From: a virus
Strand: one strand, 5' to 3'
DNA: 27,679 nt
IMG/VR virus record: IMGVR_UViG_3300017783_000157
Span: 1-27,679 of that record
Shown: positions 1,840 to 20,816 of the stretch, in pieces
Numbering within the stretch: the stretch's first letter is position 1
Layout of the letters: each line of letters begins with the position of its first letter
Made by a program: the position numbers and the translations under genes
The notes under the pieces: generated by a model
The model's input: only the letters and a program-made list of their open reading frames with translations
Databases searched by the model: none
What the model was told of the DNA's origin: nothing

Positions 1840-1874
1840 TTTACCACTTTGCTTTTTTGTCGTTTATAGTAGTA
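1840..1874 (+). promoter_or_regulatory. 35-bp conserved upstream element, copy 1 (putative late promoter)
   Basis: The sequence TTTACCACTT, three variable bases, TTTTTTGTCG, then TTTATAGTAGTA recurs with only the three central bases changed at 20782-20816. Here it ends 11 nt before the scaffold gene start. It holds no TAnnTTTG box. TTTACC and TATAGT are 19 nt apart and could be -35/-10-like boxes for a phage-encoded sigma factor. An RNA-level element is the alternative. Confidence 0.6.
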
Positions 1875-1885
1875 GACGTATATAC

Positions 1886-2482
1886 ATGAAAGCAACAGAA
1901 ATGGTAGACAAAATAAAAGACCTGCTTGGCATTGAACTTTCAAGCCAAGATGTCGAGTCAGTTGAACTGGCTCAATCCACACTTGAAAACGGTACAGTAA
2001 TAGAATACGAAAGTATGGAAGCAGGATCTCCTGTTTTTATTGTATCAGAAGACGAAAAAATAGCACTTCCAGTTGGCGAGTACACTTTAGAAGAAGGAAA
2101 AATTTTAGTAGTTGTTGATGAGGGAGAAATCTCTGAAATCAAAGAAGCTGCTGAAGAAGAAGTAGAAGAAGAAGTAGAAGTAGAAGCAGCAGAGGAGGAA
2201 GAACTTCAGTATGTGAAAAAAGAGGAGTTTACAGCAGCTGTAGACGAAATCAAAGCAATGATTGAGGATTTGAAAAAGGACAAAGAAGACATGAGTGTTT
2301 TGAAAGCTGATATTGAAAAGCAGAACGAAATCAAAGCAAAAGAGGAATTGGCAAAAATAGAAGTAGAAGCCGAGCCTGTGTATCACAGTCCTGAAAGAAC
2401 AAAAAAACACATTCAAAAATTATCACATAACAGACCACTAACAACACAAGACATTGTGTATAAAAAACTATTCACTAATTAA
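1886..2482 (+). CDS. Probable capsid scaffold protein
   Basis: Predicted 198 aa. The N-terminal 75 residues form a small domain rich in Glu, Val and Gly. A strongly acidic low-complexity run (EEEVEEEVEVEAAEEEE, roughly 88-105) follows, then a charged helical coiled-coil stretch (about 115-160) and a basic C-terminus. This composition, the length and the position 2 nt before the major capsid gene fit a scaffold or assembly protein acting inside the prohead. There is no recognisable enzyme motif. The gene begins the head operon behind the 35-bp element. The purine-rich coding strand at 2146-2204 follows from the Glu codons. Confidence 0.65.
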   Translation: MKATEMVDKIKDLLGIELSSQDVESVELAQSTLENGTVIEYESMEAGSPVFIVSEDEKIALPVGEYTLEEGKILVVVDEGEISEIKEAAEEEVEEEVEVEAAEEEELQYVKKEEFTAAVDEIKAMIEDLKKDKEDMSVLKADIEKQNEIKAKEELAKIEVEAEPVYHSPERTKKHIQKLSHNRPLTTQDIVYKKLFTN

Positions 2483-2484
2483 AC

Positions 2485-3432
2485 ATGGCAACAACAACTA
2501 ACATAACAACAACTTTTGCAGGCGAAGCAGCAGCCAAATTTATATCTGCGGCACTTACTTCAGGAGTAACACTAAACAACGGATCAATTACTATTGAGCC
2601 AAATGTTCGATACAAGAAAGTTCTACGAACTCTTGACACAAACGCAATCGTAACAGATGCAACTTGTGATTTCACACCAACATCAACTGTAACTTTAGGC
2701 GAGCAAGTACTTGAGCCTAAAGAATTACAAACCAACCTTCAGCTTTGCAAGAAAGATTTTGCGGATACGTGGTCAGCGATGGAGATGGGTTATTCAGCAC
2801 ACCTCGAAACTCCTGACACACTCGCAGAGTATGTACTTGGATATGTAGCTGCTAAGATTGCAGAAACAATCGAGCTTAACTTATGGAGTGGAGACGATAG
2901 CGCAGGCTCAGGAAACAACCTTTTTGAAGGCTTTGAGCAGCGTATCACGTCATCAGCACTCGCAGGAGTTGGCGGAACAAGCATCGACAGCTCAAACGTT
3001 ATCACATTTTTAGGCAAAGTTGTAGATGGTATTCCTTCTGCGGTTTACGGAAAAGAAGATTTGAAAATTTGGCTACCAAACAACGTATATCAGAGCTATA
3101 TCAGAGCTTTAGGAGGCTTTGCAGCCGCAGGCGTTGGCGCAAATGGTTTTGACAATAAAGGAACACAATTCTACACAATGGGCGCAGGCTTAACGTATGA
3201 AGGTATTCCAGTAATGCGTGCAGCAGGTATGTCAGCAGACAGAGCAATTGTAGGACAGACGTCAAATTTATTCTTTGGAACTGGTCTTTTTCAGGAAGAT
3301 ATGAATGAGGTAAAATTGATTGACACAAGCGAGACTTTAGGAGACCAAAATCTTCGTATTGTCGCACGTTTCACAGCAGGAACTCAAGTAGGAACTGTTG
3401 CAGATGCTAAACATTTTACACCTGCATCATAG
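2485..3432 (+). CDS. Major capsid protein (HK97-type fold)
   Basis: Predicted 315 aa. The pattern is typical of Bacteroidota phage capsid proteins of the HK97 lineage: a short N-arm, a long segment with FADTWSAMEMGYSAH and an AETIELNLWSGD motif in the spine-helix region, a Gly/Ala-rich segment, then VYQSYIRALGG and a C-terminal YEGIPVMRA..MSADRAIVG strand block. It is preceded by the scaffold gene and followed by the tube protein with a 1-nt stop/start overlap. There is no fused protease or delta domain; the scaffold is a separate gene. This is likely the most abundant virion protein, in keeping with the terminator found two genes downstream. Confidence 0.85.
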   Translation: MATTTNITTTFAGEAAAKFISAALTSGVTLNNGSITIEPNVRYKKVLRTLDTNAIVTDATCDFTPTSTVTLGEQVLEPKELQTNLQLCKKDFADTWSAMEMGYSAHLETPDTLAEYVLGYVAAKIAETIELNLWSGDDSAGSGNNLFEGFEQRITSSALAGVGGTSIDSSNVITFLGKVVDGIPSAVYGKEDLKIWLPNNVYQSYIRALGGFAAAGVGANGFDNKGTQFYTMGAGLTYEGIPVMRAAGMSADRAIVGQTSNLFFGTGLFQEDMNEVKLIDTSETLGDQNLRIVARFTAGTQVGTVADAKHFTPAS

Positions 3433-4001
3433 TGGCGTGTGCTCTAACAACAGGGAGAGGCATTGGCTGTAAGGCTAACGTAGGAGGACTTCAGAATATA
3501 TATTTTGGAGATCCTGCGGAGTTCACAGCTGCCTCTGTTACCTACGATAGCACAACAGGCGAAATTGAAAATACAGGCATGGCTACTGGCAACGCAAGTA
3601 TATTCAAGTTTGCTTTAAAAGGTGCGAACTCGTTCACAACCACGATAACTGGATCGGACGAGAATGGCACTATTTTCACAGAACAAAGTCTTGCGATTAC
3701 GTTGCAGACAATGGATCATGCAACCCTAAAAGAAATTAAACTTTTAGCACATAGCAGACCGAAGATTTTTGTTGAAGATAGAAACGGACATCTATTGATG
3801 CTTGGTTTGGAGAATGGAATGACTCTAACAACAGGAACAATAGTGTCAGGAGATGCAATGGCAGACCTCTCGGGCTACACTTTAGAATTTAGCGGTCAAG
3901 AGAAGATCGGTGTGATTCATGTAGACGCTGGGATTGCTAACGCAAGTTTTGTAGCTGGTCTAGCGACTACTTCAATAACACCTGCATCAAGTAACGGATA
4001 A
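3432..4001 (+). CDS. Major tail tube protein
   Basis: Predicted 189 aa with a GTG start at 3432 that shares one base with the capsid stop. The N-terminus MACALTTGRGIGCKANVGG, with paired Cys residues, and the beta-rich body (TGNASIFKFALKGANSFTTT, SRPKIFVEDRNGHLLMLG) are typical of tail tube or tail sheath-less major tail proteins in flavobacterial phages. A strong intrinsic terminator lies 33 nt downstream, which fits an abundant head/tail transcript ending here. Having the tube gene next to the capsid gene, away from the other tail genes, is unusual but recurrent in this group. Confidence 0.75.
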   Translation: MACALTTGRGIGCKANVGGLQNIYFGDPAEFTAASVTYDSTTGEIENTGMATGNASIFKFALKGANSFTTTITGSDENGTIFTEQSLAITLQTMDHATLKEIKLLAHSRPKIFVEDRNGHLLMLGLENGMTLTTGTIVSGDAMADLSGYTLEFSGQEKIGVIHVDAGIANASFVAGLATTSITPASSNG

Positions 4002-4033
4002 AAATAGTTTTTTTCATTGTTTTTTAATATGGA

Positions 4034-4069
4034 GGAGGGCGGTCTAACAATCGCCCTTTTCTTGTTTTT
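4034..4069 (+). terminator. Intrinsic terminator after the tail tube gene
   Basis: Inverted repeat AGGGCG (4036-4041) and CGCCCT (4052-4057) with a 10-nt loop, extended by a G-U pair and followed by a T-rich run TTTTCTTGTTTTT. It should end most scaffold-capsid-tube transcripts, leaving the portal genes to read-through or to another promoter. Confidence 0.8.
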
Positions 4070-4071
4070 AT

Positions 4072-4443
4072 ATGATAGTAATAACACCGACATCAGGAAA
4101 TAAGACAATAAAGTTTGTGATGCACAATTACACAACTGATGCCTTGATTGTAGTCTTTAGAGATACTGCCCAAAACAGCAATCTATTGACAGTAACAGGC
4201 AGCTCTCTTGTTTCTAAAAACTCCTATTACAACGAACTAACAGCAAACTTTACTACTGCGCCTGTAGAGGGCAGGACTTACGAGATGCTGATAGCTTTAG
4301 CCTCTAACGATATTGTGTTTCACAAGGAAACAATATTCTGTACTGCCCAAACTGTTGAGGACTATACAATCAACAACGGGATTTATAACATGAAAAACGA
4401 CTACGCAGCTGACGTAGACAACGAATTTGCTTACTATGAATAA
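4072..4443 (+). CDS. Conserved phage structural-type protein of unknown function
   Basis: Predicted 123 aa, beta-rich (KTIKFVMHNYTTDALIVVF, ELTANFTTAPVEGRTYEMLI) with a VFHKETIFCTAQTVEDYTINNG region near the C-terminus. Small proteins with a K.IFCT.Q...Y.. pattern occur between the tail tube and portal genes in flavobacterial phages. They are presumed virion or assembly components. It starts just after the terminator and overlaps the portal start by 8 nt. No enzyme motif is visible. Confidence 0.6.
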   Translation: MIVITPTSGNKTIKFVMHNYTTDALIVVFRDTAQNSNLLTVTGSSLVSKNSYYNELTANFTTAPVEGRTYEMLIALASNDIVFHKETIFCTAQTVEDYTINNGIYNMKNDYAADVDNEFAYYE

Positions 4444-6226
4444 CACACACCTCATTCAGTTAGGACAGTATGAAATGCCAAAGGCTGTAGAAAGCCGCAC
4501 AAATGACTATGTGGGGTATGGCGATGATAACAACTACTACGAGTATCTGATCAACACTTACATCGAAAGTCCTACACACCACTCAATTGTCAATGGTGTT
4601 GTAAATATGATATATGGGAAAGGTCTTGATGCTACCAACAGCAGTCGAATGCCTGATGAGTACGCACAGATGAAAAAGATATTTAGACCTGACGAGCTTC
4701 GTAGGGTTGTGCAGGATTTAAAGCTCTTGGGCGAGGGTGCTTTCCAGATTTTCTACAAAGGCAACAAGGTTGTTCAGGCTAAACACTTTCCAAGACAAAC
4801 ACTACGACCTGAAAAGGCAAATGAAAAGGGAGATGTTGAAGCATATTATTACTCTCACGACTGGGCAAAGCACAAAAAAAGAGATAAGCTGACACGTATG
4901 CCTGTCTTTGTAAACGATGGGAAACCAAAGACACAAAATGAAATACTAATCGTAAGGCGTTATGTTACTGGTTACCACTACGTAAGTCCTCCAGACTATG
5001 TCGGTGCAATTGGCTACGCTACCCTTGAGGCTGAAATAAGCGACTACCTAATCAATGACGTGCAATGCGGTTTTTCAGGTACTAAAATAATAAACTTCAA
5101 CAACGGAGTTCCTGACAGAGAGAAGCAGCTTGAAGTCAAGAGTGATGTCATGCAAAAGTTAACAGGCAGCAAAGGCGAAAAGGTGCTAATATCTTTTAAC
5201 AGCACACCAGAAGCCAAAACGACAATTGATGACATTCCGCTAAACGATGCGCCTGCACATTACCAGTATTTGTCAGATGAGTGCTCTAGAAAATTAATGA
5301 TAGGACACAGAATAACGTCTCCCCTTCTTTTAGGTATTCGTGATGGCAACAACTCGCTAGGCTCAAATGCTGACGAGATCAAGCACTCCTTTCAATTATT
5401 TGAAAATGTAGTTATAAAGCCATACCAACATCTTTTGACAGATGCCATAGACAGCATACTTTCAGTAAATGGGATTGCGTTAAATACGTATTTTAAAACG
5501 CTTGAGCCGATTGAATTTCAAGAGACAGAGCAGATTATATCAAAAGAGGAAAAAGAAGAGGAAACAGGCATTAAAATGAGCGAGGAGATGACCTGCTGCT
5601 CTAAAGATGAAGCATTTACTGACGAGCATGGCGATATACTCTTTGAAGGCTTAAAAGGAGAGATTGTAAATGATGACTGGGAAGTTGTAGAAGAACGTGA
5701 TTACAGCGAGGAAAACGAGGTGTTTGAGCAGTGGGCAGACAGCGATAAGAAAGGCGAGCAAAAGCTGTATCAAGTAGCATCACAACCAAGCGGTTTTAGC
5801 TACCTTGACAAGTCTTCATACAAAGTGCGCTATAAGTACGCAGTAGGCTCACGCAAGGCTAAAAAATCAGGCAACACTTCAAGAAGGTTTTGCACCGATA
5901 TGATGGCAGCATCACGTGCAGGTGTAGTCTATCGTATAGAGGACATAGACAGAGCATCAACAAACCTAAATTTTAAAGCAGCAGAGCTGCCCATGCACAA
6001 CAATCAGAAATTTGATTTGTTTAAGCACAAAGGCGGAATATACTGCCGACATATATGGAGAGAGGTACTCTACAAGCTAAAGGTAGGAAAGGAAGTGTCA
6101 GAGGACATCACAGACTACAAAAAAGCAAAAGAGATACCTGCTTCATACAAACCAAATCCGAGAGGCTCAAAGCAGTCTAAAGTCGCACCTATAAACACGC
6201 CAACAAAAGGCGCATACCCTTCATAA
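4436..6226 (+). CDS. Portal protein fused to a MuF-like head morphogenesis domain
   Basis: Predicted 596 aa from ATG 4436; a TTG nine bases upstream is the other option. Residues 1-370 look like a portal: DDNNYYEYLINTYIESPTHHS, a KLLGEGAFQIFYKG wing/stem segment, and HRITSPLLLGIRDGNNSLGSN with a downstream helix. After an acidic linker with CC (about 375-450), residues 450-560 (VRYKYAVGSRK...SRRFCTDM...GGIYCRHIWREVLY) match the MuF-type C-terminal signature R.FC...CRH.W. The protein would form the portal vertex and carry an internal minor head component in the same chain. Its placement after capsid and tube is atypical. The portal call is firm on length, order and motif; the MuF call is moderate. 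Confidence 0.8.
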   Translation: MNNTHLIQLGQYEMPKAVESRTNDYVGYGDDNNYYEYLINTYIESPTHHSIVNGVVNMIYGKGLDATNSSRMPDEYAQMKKIFRPDELRRVVQDLKLLGEGAFQIFYKGNKVVQAKHFPRQTLRPEKANEKGDVEAYYYSHDWAKHKKRDKLTRMPVFVNDGKPKTQNEILIVRRYVTGYHYVSPPDYVGAIGYATLEAEISDYLINDVQCGFSGTKIINFNNGVPDREKQLEVKSDVMQKLTGSKGEKVLISFNSTPEAKTTIDDIPLNDAPAHYQYLSDECSRKLMIGHRITSPLLLGIRDGNNSLGSNADEIKHSFQLFENVVIKPYQHLLTDAIDSILSVNGIALNTYFKTLEPIEFQETEQIISKEEKEEETGIKMSEEMTCCSKDEAFTDEHGDILFEGLKGEIVNDDWEVVEERDYSEENEVFEQWADSDKKGEQKLYQVASQPSGFSYLDKSSYKVRYKYAVGSRKAKKSGNTSRRFCTDMMAASRAGVVYRIEDIDRASTNLNFKAAELPMHNNQKFDLFKHKGGIYCRHIWREVLYKLKVGKEVSEDITDYKKAKEIPASYKPNPRGSKQSKVAPINTPTKGAYPS

Positions 6227-6227
6227 T

Positions 6228-6734
6228 ATGGCACAAGCACTATTTATCAGACCAATGGATGTCAAGAGGTTTACTGCTGCAAATGGCAACATAGACAACG
6301 ACAGATTTTTGCAGTATTTATTCATTGCTCAAGAGATACACATACAACGCTTTTTAGGCTCTGACCTTACAGAAGCACTTGAGACAAAAATCAACGGATC
6401 AAGTCTTTCTGGCAACTATTTGACACTCGTACAGGATTACGTAAAGCCTGCTCTTTGCCACTGGGCAATGGTTGAGGCACTTCCGTTTCTTGCAATTACT
6501 ATTGGGGCGAAAGGGGTGTACAGACATACATCAGAAAACGGAACAACAGCGACAAAAGAAGAGGTTGATTTCTTAGTAGAGAAGGAAAGACAAACAGCGC
6601 AGTATTTCTCAAACAGGTTAATAGATTATTTAAAAGATAACGCATCAACGATGTTTCCAGAGTATTACACAAACACAGGGAACAAGGACATCAGTCCAGA
6701 CGATGATGCAGATTTTGTAGGGATAGTATTATGA
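6228..6734 (+). CDS. Head-tail connector/adaptor, DUF6712-like
   Basis: Predicted 168 aa, mostly helical: an N-terminal FIRPMDVKRFTAANGNIDND segment, then AQEIHIQRFLGSDLTEAL, YVKPALCHWAMVEALPF and a C-terminal YFSNRLIDYLKDN. This pattern is seen in DUF6712-type proteins of Bacteroidota phages that take the head-tail adaptor position right after portal. It would dock onto the portal ring. It starts one base after the portal stop. The family assignment is from memory of motifs, not a search. Confidence 0.65.
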   Translation: MAQALFIRPMDVKRFTAANGNIDNDRFLQYLFIAQEIHIQRFLGSDLTEALETKINGSSLSGNYLTLVQDYVKPALCHWAMVEALPFLAITIGAKGVYRHTSENGTTATKEEVDFLVEKERQTAQYFSNRLIDYLKDNASTMFPEYYTNTGNKDISPDDDADFVGIVL

Positions 6735-6859
6735 AGACAAAGAAAAAAATTAAAAACGAGAAACTACTGGACTTGTATCTAGCTAAACTAATGCAAGAGC
6801 CGAGTAAAGAAAAAATTAAACCAAAAAACCCGTTTTGGGGAATATTTGAGAAAAAATGA
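6731..6859 (+). CDS. Small basic protein, unknown function
   Basis: 42 aa, with ATGA overlaps at both ends, to the adaptor gene upstream and the next gene downstream. It is very Lys-rich (MKTKKKIKNEKLLDLYLAK) and ends NPFWGIFEKK. The tight translational coupling argues that it is a real gene. No function can be inferred. Confidence 0.5.
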   Translation: MKTKKKIKNEKLLDLYLAKLMQEPSKEKIKPKNPFWGIFEKK

Positions 6860-7017
6860 GTTACGGATCAATTTATCAATCGACATGGTGGGGATTTGTC
6901 AGCAGTACTTACGGAAGTATCTACCAAGCTATCGCACAATCTCTTAACAGAGTTACAGCAGAAAACGGAGATTTCCTTATTGCTGAAAATGGAGACAATA
7001 TAATTATAGAAGAATAA
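6856..7017 (+). CDS. Small conserved virion-associated-type protein with YGSIYQ repeat
   Basis: 53 aa, coupled by ATGA to the preceding gene and 4 nt before the fibre gene. The hexapeptide YGSIYQ occurs twice around a WWG, and the C-terminus is acidic and beta-like (ENGDFLIAENGDNIIIEE). Short YGSIY..WWG proteins precede fibre genes in flavobacterial phages, suggesting an accessory or anchoring part of the tail tip or fibre. This is inferred from position and composition only. Confidence 0.55.
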   Translation: MSYGSIYQSTWWGFVSSTYGSIYQAIAQSLNRVTAENGDFLIAENGDNIIIEE

Positions 7018-7021
7018 AAAA

Positions 7022-8308
7022 ATGGCAAATAAAAAATTTAGTGAGTTTACGCTCAAAACAGATAGTGCAAACGTAGACTTCGTAGTAGGTTACGATGGTA
7101 CTGATAACGTAAGGATAGCACCTAGCAATTTAAGCAGCGGAGGCGCATCGTCTTTGAACGGTTTAAGTGATGTGCTTATTGATACTACTTCAGAGTATGT
7201 TGGCACTATTCCTAGTGGTTTATCGGGTAATCCACAAGGCAATACTACTTTAGGTATTGAAGCAGGTCTTAATCTAACAAGTGGAGGTGGTAATAGTTTT
7301 GTTGGCGATGATGCGGGTAAAACTATAACAACAGGTGCAAGAAATGTTGCATTAGGTCAGATTTCAATGAGTGCTGCTGCCACAGGCATAAACGACACAG
7401 TTGCAGTTGGTTATTCATCAGGCTCACAAGCAACAGGCTCATCTTCTGTTCACGTTGGTAGGTTTGCAGCTTACACAAATCAAGCAACTGCCCACATCTC
7501 TATTGGGCAACAGGCGGGTTTATCACAAACTTCAGGTGCAAGTAATACAAATATAGGTTATCAAGCAGGGTTCTCTAACACCACAGGAGGATTTAGAACT
7601 ATGCTTGGGTATCAAGCAGGTAAATCTCAAACAGGTGGTAATAATACTTTTTTAGGTTCTTTATCAGGTGGTAGTCGAAGCGGTAGTGGTTCAGGAAATA
7701 CAGGTGTAGGTGCTAACGCTTTAAGATATGTTGAAAACTCTAATAACACTGCTTTAGGAAACGGAGCAGGACAATACGCTGATAGTACAAGTTCGAACAA
7801 CGTAATGATTGGTAAGAATGCAATGGGTGGTGCGTTTGGCTCTAAATCAAATAATGTAGCTGTTGGTTATCAAGCAGGGGATAGTGTTACAACAGGACAA
7901 AACCTTACAATGATAGGTTATGATGCTGATGCTTCGTCAGCCACAGCTACAAACGAAATAACCTTAGGTGATGCAAACATAGCTACTTTAAGATGTCAAG
8001 TGCAAACAATATCTGCTCTTTCTGATAGTAGAGATAAAACAAATGTACAGCCATCGCCTTATGGTCTTGATTTGATTAGCCAATTACAGCCTGTAACATT
8101 TGATTGGAATATGCGAGATGGTGCTAAAGTAGGTCAAAAAGATTTAGGGTTTATCGCTCAAGAACTACAAGAGGTAGATGATGAAAACCTACAGCTTGTT
8201 TATGATAACAATCCCGACAGATTAGAAGCAAGTTATGGTAGACTAATTCCTGTACTTGTACAAGCTATAAAAGAATTAAAAGCAGAAGTTGAATTATTAA
8301 AAGCATAA
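7022..8308 (+). CDS. Tail fibre/spike with S74 intramolecular chaperone
   Basis: Predicted 428 aa. The short N-terminal part (to about 60) probably anchors to the virion. Residues 70-320 are a series of about 22-residue repeats of the NT.IGYQAG...TTG kind, typical of left-handed beta-roll or YadA-head-like trimeric fibres. From residue 334 begins a Peptidase_S74 chaperone of endosialidase: the S-D-S-R-D-K motif holds the expected autocleavage Ser334 and Lys339, followed by GFIAQELQEV and a C-terminal helical coiled coil (QAIKELKAEVELLK). The chaperone is expected to trimerise the fibre and then cleave itself off. Host receptor binding is inferred. Confidence 0.85.
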   Translation: MANKKFSEFTLKTDSANVDFVVGYDGTDNVRIAPSNLSSGGASSLNGLSDVLIDTTSEYVGTIPSGLSGNPQGNTTLGIEAGLNLTSGGGNSFVGDDAGKTITTGARNVALGQISMSAAATGINDTVAVGYSSGSQATGSSSVHVGRFAAYTNQATAHISIGQQAGLSQTSGASNTNIGYQAGFSNTTGGFRTMLGYQAGKSQTGGNNTFLGSLSGGSRSGSGSGNTGVGANALRYVENSNNTALGNGAGQYADSTSSNNVMIGKNAMGGAFGSKSNNVAVGYQAGDSVTTGQNLTMIGYDADASSATATNEITLGDANIATLRCQVQTISALSDSRDKTNVQPSPYGLDLISQLQPVTFDWNMRDGAKVGQKDLGFIAQELQEVDDENLQLVYDNNPDRLEASYGRLIPVLVQAIKELKAEVELLKA

Positions 8309-8311
8309 AAG

Positions 8312-8557
8312 ATGTATATAAACGTAATAACATCAGAGAATACTGAAGATAGCCACAAAGAAGTTATCACAAGCCAAATACCTGACCAATTAGCACAGAT
8401 AGGCGAAGGGGAGAATGTAGATGCAATCAAGTATCACTTTAAGTGGGTACTTGCTAATGACTTCTACAAAGACGAATTGACAAGTGAACAAATATCTGAT
8501 ATGGAGGCTCATTTGCCTTCAGATTACCAAGACGAATACGAAGAACTTCCAGAATAG
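8312..8557 (+). CDS. Small acidic protein after fibre gene, unknown function
   Basis: Predicted 81 aa, acidic, no Cys, ending EYEELPE; contains IKYHFKWVLANDFYKDELTSEQISDMEAHLP. It starts 3 nt after the fibre stop and is co-oriented. It may be a fibre assembly chaperone by position, but nothing in the sequence demonstrates this. Confidence 0.5.
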   Translation: MYINVITSENTEDSHKEVITSQIPDQLAQIGEGENVDAIKYHFKWVLANDFYKDELTSEQISDMEAHLPSDYQDEYEELPE

Positions 8558-8571
8558 TAAAACATAAAACA

Positions 8572-12171: not shown

Positions 12172-12181
12172 CTTATATTTG
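12151..12181 (+). promoter_or_regulatory. Integrase promoter (Bacteroidota type)
   Basis: TTG at 12151 and TATATTTG at 12174-12181, 20 nt apart, match the Bacteroidota -33/-7 arrangement (TAnnTTTG). The -7 box ends 4 nt before the integrase ATG, so the mRNA would be leaderless or nearly so. Confidence 0.6.
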
Positions 12182-13512: not shown

Positions 13513-13525
13513 ATTTATGTCTAAT

Positions 13526-14053: not shown

Positions 14054-14100
14054 TTTTTCTATTGTTTTTTAAAAAAAACTATCACAATTTCATTTATTAA

Positions 14101-14119
14101 ATAATAATTATTATATTTG
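14101..14119 (+). promoter_or_regulatory. Early promoter -7 box with overlapping palindromic operator
   Basis: TATATTTG at 14112-14119 fits the Bacteroidota -7 consensus for the rightward operon; the -33 element (TTTC at 14088) is weak. The perfect 14-bp palindrome ATAATAATTATTAT (14101-14114) overlaps it by three bases and is a plausible repressor site. The whole gap 14054-14171 is very AT-rich. Confidence 0.5.
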
Positions 14120-14171
14120 TATAGTAAATAATGAAAAAGTGAAAGTTATTTCATTTTATAATATACAAAGA

Positions 14172-14384
14172 ATGAGACAGAACATAAAACAGTTGTTCAA
14201 AAGTGTTGATAACAAAACAGAGTTTGTTGAGCTATTATCAAAAGAGTTTAACAGGAAACCTGCATCAATCAGAAACAACTGGTTTTCTGCCTTTTATTCA
14301 ATTCCTCAAGAACACGAGGCACGTGTTGTAGAACTATTACAGCGCACAATAGCTGCACAGAACTTTAAAGCTGTAGAGGCATGA
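14172..14384 (+). CDS. Cro-position small DNA-binding-type protein
   Basis: 70 aa from ATG 14172 (a GTG at 14139 would add 11 residues). It is helical, with EFVELLSKEFNRKPASIRNNWFSAFYSIPQEHEARVVELL. Proteins with the R..WF...SIP.EH...V..LL pattern are the first early gene in many Bacteroidota phages and are thought to be HTH-like regulators. Placement directly opposite the repressor suggests a Cro-like role, which is inferred. It is ATGA-coupled to the excisionase-like gene. Confidence 0.6.
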   Translation: MRQNIKQLFKSVDNKTEFVELLSKEFNRKPASIRNNWFSAFYSIPQEHEARVVELLQRTIAAQNFKAVEA

Positions 14385-14539
14385 TCACATTAAAAGGTAC
14401 ATACTACACAGTAGACGAGGCTTCTCGCTATCTAAGACAGTCTGACAAAACAACTCGTCGTCAGATATACAAAGGAAAACTTAAAGCCTTGCGAGTAGGC
14501 AATAAATACTTAATAGACAGAAATCAATTTAAAAATTAG
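14381..14539 (+). CDS. Excisionase-family HTH protein (HTH_17/MerR-like)
   Basis: 52 aa: YYTVDEASRYLRQSDKTTRR, QIYKGKLKALRVGNKYLI, DRNQF. This is the winged-helix excisionase pattern (V.EA...L..S..T..R.I..G.L.A.+.G.+Y.I). It may bind the attP region to direct excision, or act as an early regulator. Being early and rightward fits expression on induction. It overlaps the previous gene by ATGA. Confidence 0.75.
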   Translation: MITLKGTYYTVDEASRYLRQSDKTTRRQIYKGKLKALRVGNKYLIDRNQFKN

Positions 14540-14543
14540 AACA

Positions 14544-14714
14544 ATGAAAAAACGAATGAAAATGCTACCAACAGGTGCAATAGTTATTACCAAAGCCAAA
14601 GGAAAGGTGCAAGTGCATCATCCTAGCGACAGCGACTATCCACTACATCTGCTGTACTACAGACAGATGGAACAAATAGAAAAACAACTCGATAAAATAA
14701 GCATTTACGGATGA
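14544..14714 (+). CDS. Small early protein, unknown function
   Basis: 56 aa, with a basic start (MKKRMKMLPTGAIVITKAKG) and a helical end (YYRQMEQIEKQLDKI). It begins 4 nt after the excisionase-like gene and is ATGA-coupled to the next. Downstream ATGs at codons 5 and 7 are possible starts. No recognisable family. Confidence 0.5.
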   Translation: MKKRMKMLPTGAIVITKAKGKVQVHHPSDSDYPLHLLYYRQMEQIEKQLDKISIYG

Positions 14715-14881
14715 GCGCAATACAAGTAAGAATAGACAAGAAGTATTATCTAACTGGAAGAGCTTACTCAACAGTACAGTTTTTCCAAAGCGAAGGGCAT
14801 CTAAACAATTACTTGCGCTTCATGTCAAAAAGCGAAATAGAAACAAAAATAATAGGACATAAAATTTTAAACAATGGATAA
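14711..14881 (+). CDS. Small early protein, unknown function
   Basis: 56 aa (MSAIQVRIDKKYYLTGRAYS ... KSEIETKIIGHKI), coupled by overlap to genes on both sides (14711-14714 and 14874-14881). Mixed alpha/beta composition. The tight packing supports a real gene; no function is evident. Confidence 0.5.
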   Translation: MSAIQVRIDKKYYLTGRAYSTVQFFQSEGHLNNYLRFMSKSEIETKIIGHKILNNG

Positions 14882-15380
14882 GGAAATAGGAAAAGAGTAC
14901 ACATCAGTAGTAGCAAAGGTTACTCCAAACGGAACATACGAAAGTAAGCAAGGACATGGACTGTTCTACAAATTTGAATACGAGATGCAGGATGGAACAG
15001 CTTTAAGCGGTAGCCATAAATCTGCAGATGGTTGTATAAAAGAAGGCGAAGATGCAGCTTATGTTATTAGAGGCAGTAATGATTACGGAGCTTGGGGAAA
15101 GGTATCAAAGCCTTTTGATGGAGATCGTGGCAATGGAACTCCATACACTCCGACCAACAATACTCCTATCGCACCAAACAACAAAGACAAGAGTATCGTA
15201 TGGCAATCACTTGCAAAGGTTTCAAGTGCGCTGCTCTCCAACCAGTCTACAGTAAACCCTGATCACGCTGTAGAGCTGACAGATTTTCTTGTAAGCTATC
15301 ACGACTGGAAAGTAGGAGGAGAAAAAGGCGAAAAGCCTGTATTCAACAAGCCACGTGTGGCAGCAGATATGCCTTTTTAA
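14874..15380 (+). CDS. OB-fold single-stranded DNA-binding-like protein
   Basis: Predicted 168 aa. The N-terminal 75 residues read as a beta-barrel (YTSVVAKVTPNGTYES, LFYKFEYEMQDGTALSGSH). A Pro/Asn/Thr-rich flexible linker (about 83-105) follows, then a helical part and a C-terminus ending DMPF, close to the DDIPF-type tip by which SSB recruits replication proteins. Position at the start of the replication block supports an SSB role. The body does not match canonical SSB closely, so the call is moderate. Confidence 0.55.
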   Translation: MDKEIGKEYTSVVAKVTPNGTYESKQGHGLFYKFEYEMQDGTALSGSHKSADGCIKEGEDAAYVIRGSNDYGAWGKVSKPFDGDRGNGTPYTPTNNTPIAPNNKDKSIVWQSLAKVSSALLSNQSTVNPDHAVELTDFLVSYHDWKVGGEKGEKPVFNKPRVAADMPF

Positions 15381-15382
15381 TC

Positions 15383-15610
15383 ATGAAAATAATAGACAAG
15401 CACATAGTAGACTACTGGCGCAAAGACGTAAACATGCGCCTTGTGATTGAAAAAAGCTGCACAGACATAGAAAACGATATATGCCTTAAAAGGCTCAATG
15501 GCTTAAAATCAATAATTGCTTTCTACAATAAAGCGCACAAAGATTTGATGGCTAAAGAAATGCACGAACACAAAAACCAACAGGAATATGAACACTTTTC
15601 AAACTCTTGA
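15383..15610 (+). CDS. Hypothetical early protein
   Basis: 75 aa, helical and charged: DKHIVDYWRKDVNMRLVIEK, CLKRLNGLKSIIAFYNKAHK, with a His/Gln-rich end. It starts 2 nt after the SSB-like gene and overlaps the DnaA-like gene by 23 nt. No family recognised; replication-linked by position only. Confidence 0.55.
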   Translation: MKIIDKHIVDYWRKDVNMRLVIEKSCTDIENDICLKRLNGLKSIIAFYNKAHKDLMAKEMHEHKNQQEYEHFSNS

Positions 15611-16022
15611 CGACTTTAAAGACCTTATAAACAAGGTATATCTAATTGAAGACTTATGCGCTGCAACAAGAAAACAAAATCATGTTTTTGCCAGACACAC
15701 ATACTGCGGTCTTTTAAAAAATCTCACAAAGCTATCATATGCAAGAATTGGCGAAAGCATAAACAGAGATCACGCAACAATAATGCACTCCTGTAAGGTA
15801 CACCTTCAACTGATGCAAACAGACAAACAATACAGAGAAAGATACCGTTACTGCGAGTACATAATTGTGAGCTTATATGGCTTTAAAATTGAAGACCCTT
15901 GCGATTACATAAGGATGAACATGTATGAGTGTACAAACAAACAGCAGGATCACATAGTCTCTGTGATGAAAGAGTTTTTGTTAGACAACAAAGAACAAAA
16001 AGAAAAGAAAGAACATGTCTAA
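15588..16022 (+). CDS. DnaA domain IV-like DNA-binding protein
   Basis: Predicted 144 aa. Residues 23-72 (CAATRKQNHVFARHTYCGLL, LTKLSYARIGESINRDHATI, MHSCK) match DnaA C-terminal domain IV, including the RDHATIMHSC signature that contacts DnaA boxes. There is no AAA+ ATPase domain; the rest is a helical tail rich in Lys and Glu. It probably binds specific sites, perhaps the repeats in the next gene, to help start phage replication or to compete with host DnaA. It overlaps the replisome organiser start by 8 nt. Confidence 0.75.
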   Translation: MNTFQTLDDFKDLINKVYLIEDLCAATRKQNHVFARHTYCGLLKNLTKLSYARIGESINRDHATIMHSCKVHLQLMQTDKQYRERYRYCEYIIVSLYGFKIEDPCDYIRMNMYECTNKQQDHIVSVMKEFLLDNKEQKEKKEHV

Positions 16023-16734
16023 AGCACCTGCATTTCAATTTTACGCACAAGATTTTCTGACAGGTGTCATGGATTTGACTATGGAGGAAAGAGGCTTATA
16101 TATCACGCTTTTGGCTAGACAATGGGCGGTTTTTAATGAAAAAGGAATACCCAAAAAAAGGCTTGGGTTATTAGTGGGTTATGACTGGGAAAACATGCCT
16201 GAGATGGTCAAAGATAAGTTTACAGATAACGGAGATTACTTCTTTAATAAACGACTGCAAGAAACTTTTTTAAACATGAAGTCTTTTAAAGAGAAGCAAC
16301 GTGTTAATGGACTAAAAGGAGGAAGACCTAAAACCCAAACTAAACCCAAAAGAAACCCAAAGCAAAGCTCTTCATTGAAGATTGAAGATAGAAGTATGAA
16401 GATTGAAGATAGAAAAAAGAAGATTGAAGTTGTATTACCATACGACTCGGAAAATTTTCAAAACGCTTGGCACAACTGGAAAGAGTACAAGAGCATTGAG
16501 TTTGGTTTTAAATACAAGACAGAACAAAGCGAACAAGCTGCTCTTATGAAACTATCAAACGAAACAGACAACGAGCAACACGCCATACTATCCATAAACA
16601 ACTCAATGGCTAATGGATGGAAAGGAATATTTGCACACAAAGAAGATAAAAATGGAAGCAAGACAACTGGTAAGAAAGGAAACCAATACTCTGACAACTT
16701 CATCACAGAAGTTGCTAACGCTCTACAGTCCTAA
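16015..16734 (+). CDS. Replisome organiser/replication initiation protein (DUF1376-like)
   Basis: Predicted 239 aa. Residues 5-95 form a DUF1376-type winged-helix domain (FQFYAQDFLTGVMDLTMEER, GLYITLLARQWAVFNEKG). A KGGRPKTQTKPKRNPKQ basic linker leads into a heptad KIEDRSM-KIEDRKK-KIE, whose DNA holds the phased repeats described separately. The C-terminal part (AWHNWKEYKS, AILSINNSMANGWKGIF) matches the helicase-recruiting region of replisome organisers. As in lambda O, the origin probably lies in this gene. It overlaps the following gene. Confidence 0.75.
   Translation: MSKAPAFQFYAQDFLTGVMDLTMEERGLYITLLARQWAVFNEKGIPKKRLGLLVGYDWENMPEMVKDKFTDNGDYFFNKRLQETFLNMKSFKEKQRVNGLKGGRPKTQTKPKRNPKQSSSLKIEDRSMKIEDRKKKIEVVLPYDSENFQNAWHNWKEYKSIEFGFKYKTEQSEQAALMKLSNETDNEQHAILSINNSMANGWKGIFAHKEDKNGSKTTGKKGNQYSDNFITEVANALQS
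16331..16361 (+). repeat. Iteron set A: three AAACCCAAA repeats at 11-bp period
   Basis: AAACCCAAA starts at 16331, 16342 and 16353, spaced exactly 11 bp, one helical turn. The spacing is not a multiple of three, so the repeats fall in different reading frames and protein repetition does not explain them. Confidence 0.7.
16377..16429 (+). repeat. Iteron set B: GAAGATTGAAGATAGAA repeats at 21-bp period
   Basis: The 17-mer GAAGATTGAAGATAGAA is found at 16377 and 16398, and its first 11 bases again at 16419, each 21 bp (two helical turns) apart. They also encode a repeated heptapeptide, so protein-level selection is an alternative. With set A, 16 bp upstream, they form a likely origin of replication. 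Confidence 0.7.
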
Positions 16735-17173
16735 AAACTGTCTAGCAAAAGGGAATAAAATCAAGCAGGTGTCTGATTGCTTTGAAAGCAAAGCACCTAG
16801 CATCGGGAAAATGCAGCGTTCGCAAGGCAAGTCTTTCACAAACGCCTACATGATGGCTTGGCTCGTTTATCTAAACGAAGTGCTTGGTCTTAACAAACCT
16901 ATGAGCGAAGAGCAGATCAGGCTGTGCGCACAAATGATTTTAGATGACTACTACATGCTTAACGTGGCTGACTTGACCCTAATGTTCAAACGTGTTCTAA
17001 AAGGCGACTACGGGGAGTTCTATGAACGATTGAGTATAGACAAAATACAGAAGATATTCAAAGCATATTTTGAAGAACGATGTGGCGAGGCACAGACCCA
17101 GACACTCCGCACCCATAACGACCTCAAGTCTGATGACACCTTCGCTTTTAGCGACAACCCTAGAAGAAGATAA
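16712..17173 (+). CDS. Replication-module protein, helicase-loader position
   Basis: Predicted 153 aa if TTG 16712 is used. The frame stays open upstream with an ATG at 16613, but that would overlap the previous gene by 122 nt, so the later start is preferred though not proven. A helical protein: FTNAYMMAWLVYLNEVLGLN, MSEEQIRLCAQMILDDYYML, VADLTLMFKRVLKGDYG and IQKIFKAYFEERC. Proteins of this look follow DUF1376 genes in Bacteroidota phages (DUF6633-like) and may help load the host helicase; that role is inferred. Its last codons lie in the 18-bp repeat that bounds the next gene. Confidence 0.6.
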   Translation: MLTLYSPKNCLAKGNKIKQVSDCFESKAPSIGKMQRSQGKSFTNAYMMAWLVYLNEVLGLNKPMSEEQIRLCAQMILDDYYMLNVADLTLMFKRVLKGDYGEFYERLSIDKIQKIFKAYFEERCGEAQTQTLRTHNDLKSDDTFAFSDNPRRR

Positions 17174-17175
17174 AA
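17158..17175 (+). repeat. 18-bp direct repeat, left copy
   Basis: CCCTAGAAGAAGATAAAA is identical to 17586-17603. It contains the stop of the preceding gene and lies before the AT-rich gene 17192-17572. Confidence 0.9.
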
Positions 17176-17191
17176 ACAATGTAAAGTGAAA

Positions 17192-17572
17192 ATGGAAAAG
17201 ACAGATAACTACACACACAACAAAGAAAAACTATCACTGACAACTTTAAAAGTTGAAATCAAAGCTATTAGGGTAGATGACAAGGCAATGACTATAAATT
17301 TATTTAATCAAATTCCCCATCGTGATGTTATAGATTATTGTCCAATTAAAGATTTAATAATATTAGGAGTAGTGAAAAGAATAACACACCAAAAAACTTT
17401 TCACTGGACTTTATTTTCTATCGAAGGTAATTTGTATAAAAGTTTAAGATGTCGAAGATACAGACAATTCTCAACTCTTGAAGAAGAAAGATACATAACA
17501 GAAAAAAAAATTATTACAAGAGAGGAAATAATGACTTTAGATTATGCAAAGCAGATATATATAGCAGTGTAA
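17192..17572 (+). CDS. AT-rich inserted (moron-like) gene, unknown function
   Basis: Predicted 126 aa from ATG 17192; a GTG at 17186 is an alternative. The product is mixed alpha/beta with a basic centre (VVKRITHQKTFHWTLFSIEG, LYKSLRCRRYRQFSTLEEER) and no recognised motif. Hand counting of 240 bases gives about 27% GC, against about 40% or more in flanking genes. It lies between two copies of an 18-bp repeat, and removing one copy plus the gene would put the nuclease gene straight after the loader-position gene. This strongly suggests a recent acquisition. It could act in defence, exclusion or lysogenic fitness, but nothing shows which. Confidence 0.65.
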   Translation: MEKTDNYTHNKEKLSLTTLKVEIKAIRVDDKAMTINLFNQIPHRDVIDYCPIKDLIILGVVKRITHQKTFHWTLFSIEGNLYKSLRCRRYRQFSTLEEERYITEKKIITREEIMTLDYAKQIYIAV

Positions 17573-17585
17573 AAAAGATAACCAG

Positions 17586-17603
17586 CCCTAGAAGAAGATA
17601 AAA
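17586..17603 (+). repeat. 18-bp direct repeat, right copy
   Basis: Exact copy of 17158-17175, ending one base before the GTG start of the nuclease gene. Confidence 0.9.
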
Positions 17604-17954
17604 GTGTATAAAAAGAAATATCAAACACGCAATAAGTATAAAGCTGTTAAGCAGACGTTCAATGGCAGATCATACCACAGCAAAAAGGAGGCAGCCTTCG
17701 CCCAAGAGTTGCACCTACGTAAGCTAGCAGGGGAGATTACTGAAATCATTCCACAGTATCCCCTGCGACTTTACGTCAATGGCAAAAAGATATGCAACTA
17801 CTTCATGGACTTTAAAGTAGTATATCCAGACGAAAGCGTAGAGCTAATTGAGGTCAAAGGTTTTGAAACAGATGTCTGGAGGCTAAAATGGAAACTAACC
17901 GAAGCACTACTTGATGAGCTAGAGCCAAACGCAAAACTTGTACTTGTAAAATGA
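17604..17954 (+). CDS. DUF1064-type PD-(D/E)XK nuclease
   Basis: Predicted 116 aa with a GTG start at 17604, directly after the 18-bp repeat. The nuclease residues are in place: Glu29 in KKEAAFAQEL, Asp69 in YFMDFKVVY, and Glu83-Val-Lys85 in VELIEVKG. The length and layout match DUF1064 phage proteins, presumed endonucleases or Holliday-junction resolvases for recombination or branch removal before packaging. ATGA-coupled to the sigma-like gene. Confidence 0.8.
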   Translation: MYKKKYQTRNKYKAVKQTFNGRSYHSKKEAAFAQELHLRKLAGEITEIIPQYPLRLYVNGKKICNYFMDFKVVYPDESVELIEVKGFETDVWRLKWKLTEALLDELEPNAKLVLVK

Positions 17955-18472
17955 ATATACTCAGCCAACTTAATCGCAACCACAAAAACTTTGTCTTGTA
18001 CGTCAAAAAGAACGCAATGACAACACTACAGAAAAAATACCCTGAAGACGTAGTACAGGAAGCATACTTAAAAGTTGCAACAATACTAGCGCAAGGGCAA
18101 GAGCTGAAGTTTGAAAGCTACTCGTTACTTGAAGGCTACTTTTTTAAAAGCATAAAAAGCATATTAAAAGACGAGTTGAAAAAGAAATCAATCCAAGAGC
18201 TGCCCATCAAACAAGACATTGTTGGAGAAATACCAGAGGAGATAGATGTGGTTGAGTATTCAGAGCTTGTTAAAAAGATTGACGAGGTTGTAGAGACCTT
18301 TTACTGGTATGACAAAAAGATGTTTAATCTATACCGCTATCAAATACCCTCTATTAGAAAGATATCAAGTGAGACAAAAATCAGCAGACCAAGCGTTACT
18401 CAAACAATCGAAAGCTGCAAGATGAAAATACAGAAAAGGCTAGCAACTGAATACTACAAAATAGCAATATGA
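17951..18472 (+). CDS. Sigma-70-like transcription factor
   Basis: Predicted 173 aa. Residues 27-75 (LQKKYPEDVVQEAYLKVATI, FKSIKSILKDELKKK) resemble sigma region 2, where RNA polymerase is bound and the -10 box opened. Residues 133-165 (PSIRKISSETKISRPSVTQT, IESCKMKIQKRL) form a region-4-like helix-turn-helix. The size matches minimal ECF-type sigma factors. It lies at the end of the early operon, just before terminase, the right place for a middle/late transcription switch. Its possible target is the 35-bp element before the tail and head operons. Host anti-sigma interaction is not excluded. Confidence 0.7.
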   Translation: MNILSQLNRNHKNFVLYVKKNAMTTLQKKYPEDVVQEAYLKVATILAQGQELKFESYSLLEGYFFKSIKSILKDELKKKSIQELPIKQDIVGEIPEEIDVVEYSELVKKIDEVVETFYWYDKKMFNLYRYQIPSIRKISSETKISRPSVTQTIESCKMKIQKRLATEYYKIAI

Positions 18473-18846
18473 AACACAAAGGTTTTGGCGATACTGTAGA
18501 CTGGATCACTACTCATACTGGAATAAAAAAGGCTGTCAAATACTTTTTCGGAGAAGATTGCGGCTGTGATGAGCGCAAAAAATGGCTCAACGAAAAGTTC
18601 CCATACTTGCGTGAAGACCTAACAGAAAGCGAATACTTGCTGCTGCATGACTTCTACAAAAGCGACTACAGCTCTATAACAGCCAAACAACAAAACCAAC
18701 TCCTCAAAATATACAACAGGGTATTTGGTAAGCGTAGAGAAATGAGCAGTTGCTCTCCATGCGTTAAAACACTAATTGACGAACTAAAAGAACTATACGA
18801 TGAGTACAGCAAAGTTATTGTGCAAAGTAACAAACGGAAGGCTTGA
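18469..18846 (+). CDS. Conserved phage protein with CGC and CSPC cysteine pairs
   Basis: Predicted 125 aa, coupled by ATGA to the sigma-like gene. It has an N-terminal GFGDTVDWITTHTGIKKAVK, then FFGEDCGCDERKKWLNEKFP with two Cys, a helical middle, and MSSCSPCVKTLIDELK with two more. The four Cys could make a metal site. The DCGCDERK..LN..FPY pattern is common in flavobacterial phages next to sigma-like or terminase genes. No function is established; the pairing with a sigma-like gene hints at a transcription accessory role. Confidence 0.6.
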   Translation: MKHKGFGDTVDWITTHTGIKKAVKYFFGEDCGCDERKKWLNEKFPYLREDLTESEYLLLHDFYKSDYSSITAKQQNQLLKIYNRVFGKRREMSSCSPCVKTLIDELKELYDEYSKVIVQSNKRKA

Positions 18847-19222
18847 GGACAACACAGGCATTGTGAAAGCTCTTAAACAATATGAAGGCAAAGAGATAGT
18901 GATAACAATAAAACAAAAGCAGAAAACACGCAGTAGTTATCAAAACGCTTACTACTGGGCAGTCATTATTCCTATAACCATAAAAGCCATATACAATGAA
19001 TGGGGCGAAACATGGACACCTGAAAAGGCACATGATTTGTTCAAGCTAAAATTTATGCAAGAGTACAGACAGGTTAAATCTAAAATTATAAAAGTTCCCA
19101 AATCAACAACAGAAAACAAAACAACAGAGCAAGAGGTGTTTCACGACAATTGCAGGAACTTCCTAAAAGAGTACTTCAACATTGATGTTCCTCTGCCAAA
19201 TGAAAATATAACAATTGAATAA
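18800..19222 (+). CDS. NinB-like recombination protein
   Basis: Predicted 140 aa, starting inside the previous gene (47-nt overlap). The segment VITIKQKQKTRSSYQNAYYW resembles the RS..QN...W region of NinB/Orf-type recombination mediators, which load or displace SSB during recombination. Remaining sequence: a helical middle (EKAHDLFKLKFMQEYRQVKS) and VFHDNCRNFLKEYFNIDVPL near the end. NinB is suggested by motif and by place beside the nuclease; a search is needed to be sure. Confidence 0.55.
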   Translation: MSTAKLLCKVTNGRLEDNTGIVKALKQYEGKEIVITIKQKQKTRSSYQNAYYWAVIIPITIKAIYNEWGETWTPEKAHDLFKLKFMQEYRQVKSKIIKVPKSTTENKTTEQEVFHDNCRNFLKEYFNIDVPLPNENITIE

Positions 19223-19238
19223 TCAATCTTTTTCAATT

Positions 19239-19538
19239 ATGGATAAAAGAAAATATAACGGAGGTAAAAGAGCAGGTGCAGGAAGAAAGCCAAAAGACCA
19301 AGAGCAGTCATTGATAGAAGCTCTGGACAGAATAATAGATAGTGATAAGGCTATTGAAGTTTTAAAAGAACTAATTAGCGAGGGAGATATAAGAGCCTTG
19401 CAGCTATTCTTAAACTATCGCTATGGCAAACCGAAAGAAAGTGTAGACGTTACACAATTTGTTGAACAACCACTATTTTTAGATGTTCCTGAAGACTACA
19501 GCAGTACAGAAGATACAGAAGCTAAGCAAGAGAATTAG
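19239..19538 (+). CDS. terS: Terminase small subunit
   Basis: 99 aa from ATG 19239; a TTG at 19215 overlaps the previous gene and is less likely. The basic N-terminus NGGKRAGAGRKPKDQEQ is a hallmark of TerS-like and DNA-packaging adaptor proteins. It is followed by a helical HTH-like part (SLIEALDRIIDSDKAIEVLK, ISEGDIRALQLFLNYRYGKP). It would recognise phage DNA and hand it to TerL, whose gene overlaps its 3' end by 56 nt. Confidence 0.75.
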   Translation: MDKRKYNGGKRAGAGRKPKDQEQSLIEALDRIIDSDKAIEVLKELISEGDIRALQLFLNYRYGKPKESVDVTQFVEQPLFLDVPEDYSSTEDTEAKQEN

Positions 19539-20634
19539 GGTTGTACAAGGTGGCACGTCTGCCTCCAAGACCTTTGGCATCATTGCTCTGCTTATTGACC
19601 GATCTATTAAGATACCCAAAACAGAAACATCTGTTGTGGCGGAGAGCATACCGCACCTGCGTAGGGGTGCTGTAAGAGACTTTAAAAAGATACTGCAAAT
19701 GACAGGAAGGTGGCACAGCGAACAGTTTAACAAAACGCTACTTACATACACCTTTGCTAATGGCTCAACAATAGAGTTCTTTTCAGCAGACAGCGATGCA
19801 AAGCTGCGAGGTGCAAGAAGGCATGTGTGCTACATTAACGAGTGCAACAACATAAGCCACGAGGCATACTTTCAACTTGCTGTTAGAACATCAAAACACA
19901 TATACCTTGACTTTAATCCCTCAGCCGAGTTTTGGGCGCATACAGAACTAAAAGACGACCCTGATGCAGAATGGTTAATACTAACCTACAAAGACAATCA
20001 GGCAGCACCTAAAGCAGCAGTCAAAGAAATACTAAAAGCAAAACAAAAGGCAGACAAGGGAAACAACTTTTGGCAGAACTGGTATCGTGTCTACGGTCTT
20101 GGTCTTGTAGGTACTTTGCAAGGTGCGGTGTTTACCAACTGGAAAGAAGGCAAGTTCAAAGAAGTATCAAAACCTGTGTATGGTCAAGATTTTGGAATGA
20201 ATGATCCGACTACCCTTATAAAAACCAGTATCGACAAAGACAAGAAGCTAATATATCTGCAAGAGTGTTTCTACAAGAAAGGACTGACCACAAGCCAGAT
20301 AGCAACCCTTAACCAAAAGCACGCAGGCAATGATTTGATTGTAGCAGATAGTGCAGAGCCTCGCCTTATCCAAGAGCTGTCGCAGTATTGCAACATAGTA
20401 CCAACAATCAAAGGACAGGGTAGCATAACCTTTGGCATCAGTCTTTTGCAGGACTACGAGCTTATTGTAGACCCTGACAGCGAAGAACTAATTAAAGAGC
20501 TAAAGAATTACGTTTGGCTAGAGAAACGCTCACAAACGCCATGTGATGCTTTTAACGATTTGCTCGATGCCTTGCGCTACAGCGTATCCTACCAACTTGC
20601 CAATCCACACAGAGGGGAATACTTTGTTTATTAA
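19483..20634 (+). CDS. terL: Terminase large subunit
   Basis: Predicted 383 aa, short for a TerL but with all parts. ATPase: Walker A GGTSASKT (23-30), Walker B ending in Glu120 (VCYINE), motif III YLDFNPS (141-147). Nuclease: Asp236 (GQDFGMNDP), Asp289 (IVADSAEP) and Asp362 (DLLDALRYS), the RNase H-like acidic triad. It powers DNA packaging and cuts concatemers. It overlaps TerS by 56 nt, and the first intergenic gap after the early operon follows it. Confidence 0.9.
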   Translation: MFLKTTAVQKIQKLSKRIRVVQGGTSASKTFGIIALLIDRSIKIPKTETSVVAESIPHLRRGAVRDFKKILQMTGRWHSEQFNKTLLTYTFANGSTIEFFSADSDAKLRGARRHVCYINECNNISHEAYFQLAVRTSKHIYLDFNPSAEFWAHTELKDDPDAEWLILTYKDNQAAPKAAVKEILKAKQKADKGNNFWQNWYRVYGLGLVGTLQGAVFTNWKEGKFKEVSKPVYGQDFGMNDPTTLIKTSIDKDKKLIYLQECFYKKGLTTSQIATLNQKHAGNDLIVADSAEPRLIQELSQYCNIVPTIKGQGSITFGISLLQDYELIVDPDSEELIKELKNYVWLEKRSQTPCDAFNDLLDALRYSVSYQLANPHRGEYFVY

Positions 20635-20658
20635 CAGGTTAGAATAAACTATTTTATA

Positions 20659-20689
20659 TTGGATTAGACTTATAAATTAAGTAACTTTG
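20659..20689 (+). promoter_or_regulatory. Bacteroidota-type promoter downstream of terL
   Basis: TTG at 20659-20661 and TAACTTTG at 20682-20689, separated by 20 nt, give a good match to the -33/-7 consensus. Transcription would start near 20696 but meets a terminator at 20732-20760, so it may make a short RNA. Confidence 0.55.
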
Positions 20690-20694
20690 AAACT

Positions 20695-20760
20695 TGCGAC
20701 AGAATCAGTTTTTTACTGGTTTTAGAAAAAGAAACCCTGAGTATATCTTGGGGTTTTTTT
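20695..20760 (+). ncRNA. Candidate small RNA with two hairpins
   Basis: A predicted transcript of about 65 nt lies between the promoter at 20659 and the terminator. First hairpin ATCAGT (20704-20709) with ACTGGT (20715-20720), loop of 5 T. Second hairpin is the terminator. There is no start codon with a reasonable frame in it. It could equally be an untranslated leader with an attenuator for the tail operon. Confidence 0.4.
20732..20760 (+). terminator. Intrinsic terminator between terL and the tail operon
   Basis: AAACCC (20732-20737) pairs with GGGTTT (20751-20756), followed by more T residues (20757-20760). It should close the early/terminase transcript. Confidence 0.7.
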
Positions 20761-20781
20761 ATGCCCTATATCAAAGAGGGG

Positions 20782-20816
20782 TTTACCACTTCCGTTTTTT
20801 GTCGTTTATAGTAGTA
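20782..20816 (+). promoter_or_regulatory. 35-bp conserved upstream element, copy 2
   Basis: Identical to 1840-1874 except for the three bases after TTTACCACTT (CCG here, TGC there). Its last base is the A of the tail chaperone ATG. A -10-like TATAGT (20807-20812) so close to the start would give a leaderless mRNA. Confidence 0.6.

Follow-up and report, generated by a model that had tools for sequence, protein, structure and literature searches.

The repeated element and its surroundings

Why does a single 35-bp sequence stand before both structural operons of this phage, and which factor reads it? The window (the whole stretch of 27,679 nucleotides analysed here) closes into a circle, bases 1–123 recurring at 27557–27679, and represents a circular phage genome of 27.6 kb that codes for an integrase, a repressor-like protein, a terminase, a portal, a protease, a scaffold-like protein and a capsid protein. 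The two copies of the sequence, both on the + strand, lie at 1840–1874 and 20782–20816, are identical at 32 of 35 bases and diverge solely at the three central ones (TGC versus CCG), exactly as the initial annotation had described them. Its other readings of the sequence were confirmed as well: neither copy contains the box TAnnTTTG, which is present at 12174, 14112 and 20682 (38 occurrences across the window against 35 expected, so that the pattern is not enriched overall), and one copy precedes the scaffold and capsid genes while the other precedes the tail operon.

A scan of the window allowing up to three mismatches returned these two sites and no third copy, and the same scan of 100 dinucleotide shuffles returned 0 matches. 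The genome's longest exact repeat measures 22 bases, the length of the right-hand exact core of the element; among 200 simulated Markov sequences matched to it in length and composition, the longest exact repeat was 19 bases at most, with a mean of 15. Upstream of the window's main genes only the two copies were found, the next best score being 18/31, at the integrase gene. A supposed third copy at 4049–4083 (63%) was rejected, the best score upstream of that gene being only 16/31. An E. coli sigma-70 promoter was likewise set aside: copy 1 is flagged at 9 of 12 bases, and such matches are rarer than in shuffled sequence. Searches of Rfam gave no match, no tRNA was found, and the phage collection held no near-identical DNA.

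In copy 1, box 1 lies at about 1839–1846 and box 2 (CGTTTATAG) at 1861–1869, and 11 bases separate the end of the copy from the ATG at 1886 of the scaffold-like gene (1886–2482, + strand, PHROG 24921), which is followed by the capsid gene (2485–3432, + strand, PHROG 11320/1623). In copy 2, box 1 (GTTTACCA, 20781–20788) is followed by a 14-nt spacer, box 2 (CGTTTATAG, 20803–20811), 4 nt and the ATG at 20816, whose A is the last base of the copy and the start of the first gene of the tail operon (20816–21469, + strand, PHROG 32199). In the close relatives L001, L013 and L014 copy 1 is nearly unchanged and the adjoining upstream sequence is variable. Transcription from copy 1 would start at about 1874, leaving a leader of about 12 nt before the scaffold-like gene. 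At copy 2, where the putative −10 box ends a few bases before the start codon as in leaderless promoters, it would start at the A of the ATG or within a base or two of it, and the transcript would be leaderless. As a separate observation, PHROG 24921 extends over two genes of the window (419–2482): its first part aligns with the protease gene and its last part with the scaffold-like gene, as if one ancestral gene had been split, and copy 1 lies between the two pieces.

A two-box element in related phages

Viral contigs contain at least 540 relatives of the gene that opens the tail operon, and 80 of these were retained; bacterial genomes contain four more, every one in a flavobacterium. When the relatives are aligned at the ATG, two boxes appear upstream, usually after a terminator. 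A two-box model of 36 dissimilar sequences gives TTTATACA-N14-TTATTGTAT-N4-ATG as the typical element, with a log-likelihood of 251.6 against 68 to 91.2 in 20 shuffled sets; the spacer is of 14 nt in 87% of the weight, the distance to the ATG is 4 nt in 71%, and 25 of the 36 sequences fit at a probability of at least 0.95. Copy 2 has the same register and spacing as the element before the same gene in the relatives, with different letters. Counted back from the A of the ATG, box 1 of the relatives begins at −35 and box 2 occupies −13 to −5; if transcription starts at that A, the boxes fall at about −35 and −10, and the mRNA is leaderless. In Flavobacterium johnsoniae the host −7 promoter box lies 4–5 nt from the transcription start (PMC6847099), and since the phage box stands 4 nt from the ATG in most relatives, we infer that their transcripts begin at the start codon. 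The initial annotation had regarded the contact of copy 2 with the ATG as a caution; the abutting layout appears to be the usual one across the group.

The search for the element in related phages that the annotation had suggested revealed a lineage-specific two-box element before the tail operon and other structural operons in dozens of them. Where the scaffold start is readable, the tail and scaffold upstream regions of one phage often share such an element. In L067 TATAACAA..AAAACATTTATATA, which precedes a small open frame ahead of the tail gene, and in L083 GTATATCA.TT.A..CGGATTA each occur twice, before two structural operons; L092 shares TATAACACTTTA..TTACATTA and L106 CTCAAACGTATATATA, and in L113 a 41-nt stretch is common to both upstream regions. 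When tail and scaffold regions were re-paired among phages, only 1 of 20,000 permutations gave a match as high as that within phages. In some relatives additional elements stand ahead of other late genes: that of the terminase small subunit, that of the S78 protease, and the gene following the capsid block.

Two further motifs were seen near these sites. A run GAATAA.CAA.....TTTCAA..ATGG, separate from the late element, stands just before the start of the terminase small subunit in the window (19205–19240) and in similar form in L007, L054 and L053. In L092 and L041, box 1 is immediately preceded by TAAATTTG/TATATTTG, some 44 nt ahead of the tail-gene ATG and perhaps a second, host-type promoter in this lineage.

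The same system seems to be present in a cultured phage and in a prophage of a cultured strain. Nonlabens phage P12024S, whose gp33 is annotated with sigma region 2, has five exact AAAACA-N-CGTTAATA-N-ATG sites, at the genes starting at 3031, 5412, 23961, 25201 and 26802, against 0 in 100 shuffles; variants of the element were also noticed at 140–181 and 21245–21282 of this genome (L224), before gp01 (start 179) and the gene at 21280, which brings the count to seven. In Flagellimonas onchidii XY-359 a prophage (L130) carries two matched elements, each 4 nt from an ATG, and a sigma gene upstream of the terminase; in the Galbibacter pacificus prophage (L131) there are a sigma match and two upstream regions that resemble each other. 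As a small control, three flavobacterial phages lacking a sigma match were put through an in-register test, which is blind to pairs differing in ATG distance such as that of the window; its top matches were duplicated sequence or leaders, which by eye formed no comparable set before the structural operons.

A predicted sigma factor gene upstream of the tail operon

The protein encoded at 17951–18472 (+ strand, 173 aa), called sigma-like in the initial annotation, proved to be a predicted sigma factor of the ECF type and is the proposed reader of the element. It matches TIGR02937 (sigma70-ECF) at 46.6 bits, above the cut-off of 42.9, and PHROG 1740, a sigma factor family; the sigma proteins of most relatives fall below the TIGR02937 cut-off with significant scores. 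In its AlphaFold2 model (mean pLDDT 85.6) residues 1–85 are sigma2-like and residues 101–169 sigma4-like, with a linker between them and no sigma3, the domain layout of ECF factors. The best structural matches of the model are to E. coli sigmaE (Z 10.7), to E. coli sigmaE region 4 bound to −35 DNA (Z 9.9, 2.1 Å over 69 residues) and to sigma2 of RpoE (Z 9.4, 2.4 Å over 77 residues), and a profile of 34 relatives finds SigR (sigma2) and SigH in the PDB.

Does the gene accompany the element? Searches with single proteins found one close relative only, and a family search was needed. Among 40 records, comprising the window and its relatives, it located the gene in 25, on the same strand as the tail gene and 2.5–9.1 kb upstream of it wherever positions could be compared. 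Nearly all records lacking the gene end too close upstream, most of them less than 5.5 kb before the tail gene. In almost every record that has enough upstream sequence the element is accompanied by an ECF-type gene, the association that the annotation had suggested testing. G035 has no sigma match within 5.4 kb upstream; G021, which carries the element and has no sigma match within 7.96 kb upstream, is possibly an exception, and the one real candidate for it. Among more distant capsid relatives the sigma gene is present in 6 of 9 long records, and two of these distant records have pairs of similar upstream regions of another type. The L094 record (G062) contains two sigma matches in tandem at 18343–19199, the second of them partial.

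Directly after the sigma gene lies a conserved gene (18469–18846, + strand) whose product carries the pattern KGLGD...DCGC.ER...SC.PC, and a homolog follows the sigma gene in many of the sigma loci. PHROG 32048, a family with no known function, matches 27 of 30 homologs, and the protein has an invariant CGC and another conserved Cys near the C-terminal SC.PC. Its model is helical, of modest confidence, and the protein is possibly a partner of the sigma factor or a zinc protein.

Joint variation of the sigma gene and the putative promoter

Between lineages the elements differ, in step with the sigma-like gene, while within a phage they are often alike. Seven promoter classes, assigned by eye before the sigma tree was built, require 6 changes on that tree, which is the minimum, and shuffled labels require 13.6 on average. 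Since related phages share sigma factor and promoter by descent, promoter–sigma similarity was tested after removing the similarity of the adjacent gene. The partial correlation was 0.37 (p 0.003) for the tail promoter and 0.59 (p 0.0004) for the scaffold promoter; the adjacent gene keeps an independent correlation with the promoter after allowing for sigma, so these values do not fully separate shared ancestry from co-evolution. This variation supports, without proving, the sigma factor as reader of the element, a role that could instead belong to some other phage factor inherited along with it, the 18469 protein for example.

A proposed late switch and its alternatives

Sequence comparison establishes the element and its geometry, its repeated occurrence ahead of structural operons, the sigma gene with its predicted fold, and the joint variation of gene and element. 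We propose that the 35-bp element is, very probably, a two-box late promoter read by the host RNA polymerase with the phage's own ECF-type sigma factor, and the same arrangement seems to serve many related viruses that infect marine flavobacteria, usually with the promoter abutting the start codon and an mRNA that has no leader. The phage-specific late transcription switch suggested in the initial annotation is supported by the recurrence of the element, by the ECF-type sigma gene upstream and by promoter classes that follow the sigma tree.

As to where transcription starts, what the sigma factor binds, when each step occurs and how the leaderless message is translated, we infer the following course. 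Soon after infection or induction, host polymerase carrying sigma-A would initiate at a promoter of the TAnnTTTG type near 14112 and transcribe the early operon; there the box TATATTTG (14112–14119, + strand) agrees with the F. johnsoniae consensus (PMC6847099) and precedes the operon containing the sigma gene. The sigma factor would then be made; its region 4 would bind box 1 (TTTACCAC) and its region 2 would open box 2 (CGTTTATAG) at both copies, switching on the head and tail operons, with a leaderless transcript at copy 2 and a leader of about 12 nt at copy 1. An intrinsic terminator at 20728–20760 (+ strand; a 14-pair hairpin and a T run in the RNA fold), which closes the early operon just before copy 2, would keep early transcription out of the tail operon, and a terminator-like hairpin is found at the same place in many relatives. 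Between 20682 and 20765 the window has a TAACTTTG box followed by two strong hairpins (a 76-nt stretch, z −4.1), the second of which is the terminator; a short early RNA from this box, not conserved in relatives, is possible. Both the early operon and the integrase gene are probably transcribed from promoters of the sigma-A type. For the element itself a host sigma-A promoter is disfavoured: TAnnTTTG, which stands 4–5 nt before the start site in Bacteroidota sigma-A promoters, is absent from the window element and from the −7 position in most relatives.

The alternative that survives best, which we nevertheless consider unlikely, is that the element is a site for a phage activator, for example the 18469 protein, which would recruit the host sigma-A polymerase while the sigma-like protein acts elsewhere. 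In its favour, the 18469 gene is conserved immediately behind the sigma gene in many of the phages and would vary together with it. However, counted from the ATG the boxes occupy the −35 and −10 positions of a sigma promoter, and the spacer of 14 nt between them is fixed; TAnnTTTG is lacking, as just described; and no recognised DNA-binding domain was found in the 18469 protein.

That the element acts on RNA, as a translation-start or leader element common to highly expressed genes, is a distinctly weaker proposition. It would account for an element that often touches the ATG, and copy 2 has at −3 the A that host start regions favour (PMC6847099). However, the element keeps its own spacing where the ATG is farther away, as in copy 1 of the window (12 nt), the L053 scaffold region, L064 and L042, which argues for a primary role in transcription and not in translation; it is absent upstream of genes inside the window's operons; and an RNA hairpin is disfavoured by its folding, no better than that of shuffled sequence (z −0.02 and 0.55). 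Lambda-like antitermination, in which a short RNA from the 20682 promoter would stop at the terminator until an antiterminator acts, is equally improbable, because despite the promoter-like box, the two hairpins and the terminator directly before the tail operon of the window, TAnnTTTG is found anywhere in the corresponding stretch in only 13 of 66 relatives, at no constant place, and the near-identical element before the scaffold operon is left unexplained.

Implications and relation to known systems

The element provides a testable rule for locating the late operons of these phages, and from sequence alone it pairs a sigma gene with its proposed promoters. It also leads to the prediction that the mRNAs from which capsid and tail proteins are made have no leader. 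We found no description of late gene control in this abundant group of marine flavobacterial phages in the open-access literature. Whether the plan extends to a large, mostly uncultured group of flavobacterial phages, with sigma/promoter pairs diverging in lockstep, promoters fused to the start codons of structural operons and virion proteins made largely from leaderless mRNAs, we regard as an even bet. Were it true, the sigma/promoter pairs of these phages would form a mutually orthogonal set, and translation of their leaderless virion mRNAs would begin in a phage-specific way; the mRNAs of the host phylum itself mostly carry leaders and are without Shine-Dalgarno sites. Such naturally diverged pairs could become orthogonal switches for flavobacteria, and the proposal is open to direct tests in P12024S, which is in culture, and in the F. 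onchidii prophage, whose host strain is cultured too.

How does this plan compare with known systems? In the Bacillus subtilis prophage PBSX, Xpf/Pcf switches on the late operon, and T4 and SPO1 are large lytic phages, the late promoters of T4 having no −35 box and needing a clamp and a co-activator. Xpf/Pcf, a group IV factor of sigma2–sigma4 architecture linked to prophage induction (PMC10141391), resembles the window protein in being a small two-domain ECF-type sigma factor in the genome of a temperate phage. The window phage differs from PBSX in phylum, in promoter sequences and in promoters that abut the start codon, and its protein scores 21.2 bits against NF005385 (positive control sigma-like factor), far below the cut-off of 136; it is not filed as a member of the Xpf/Pcf family, though it would work like one. 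T4 gp55 and SPO1 gp34 are likewise phage-encoded sigma factors for late genes with phage-specific promoters (PMC9429907); the window differs in its two boxes and its genome of 27.6 kb. The Bacteroidota sigma-A promoter (TTTG/TAnnTTTG; PMC6847099) has the same box-to-start distance of 4–5 nt as is proposed for the element, which is devoid of TAnnTTTG. Host transcripts mostly carry leaders (87% of those predicted in F. johnsoniae exceed 10 nt; PMC6847099), whereas the late transcripts of the phages would mostly lack them. The Nonlabens phages P12024S/L (Inhavirus) are similar in that a sigma region 2 protein (gp33) is encoded upstream of the terminase and that structural genes are preceded by repeated boxes, which end within a few nt of the ATG; they differ in capsid and tail proteins only about 27–31% identical to those of the window, in a genome of 35.7 kb, in having 5 to 7 copies instead of 2, and in box sequences unlike those of the window. 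Late control by a phage sigma factor is thus already known. What would be unusual here is that promoter and start codon are fused, that this arrangement extends across a large uncultured group, and that sigma genes and promoters have diverged in parallel.
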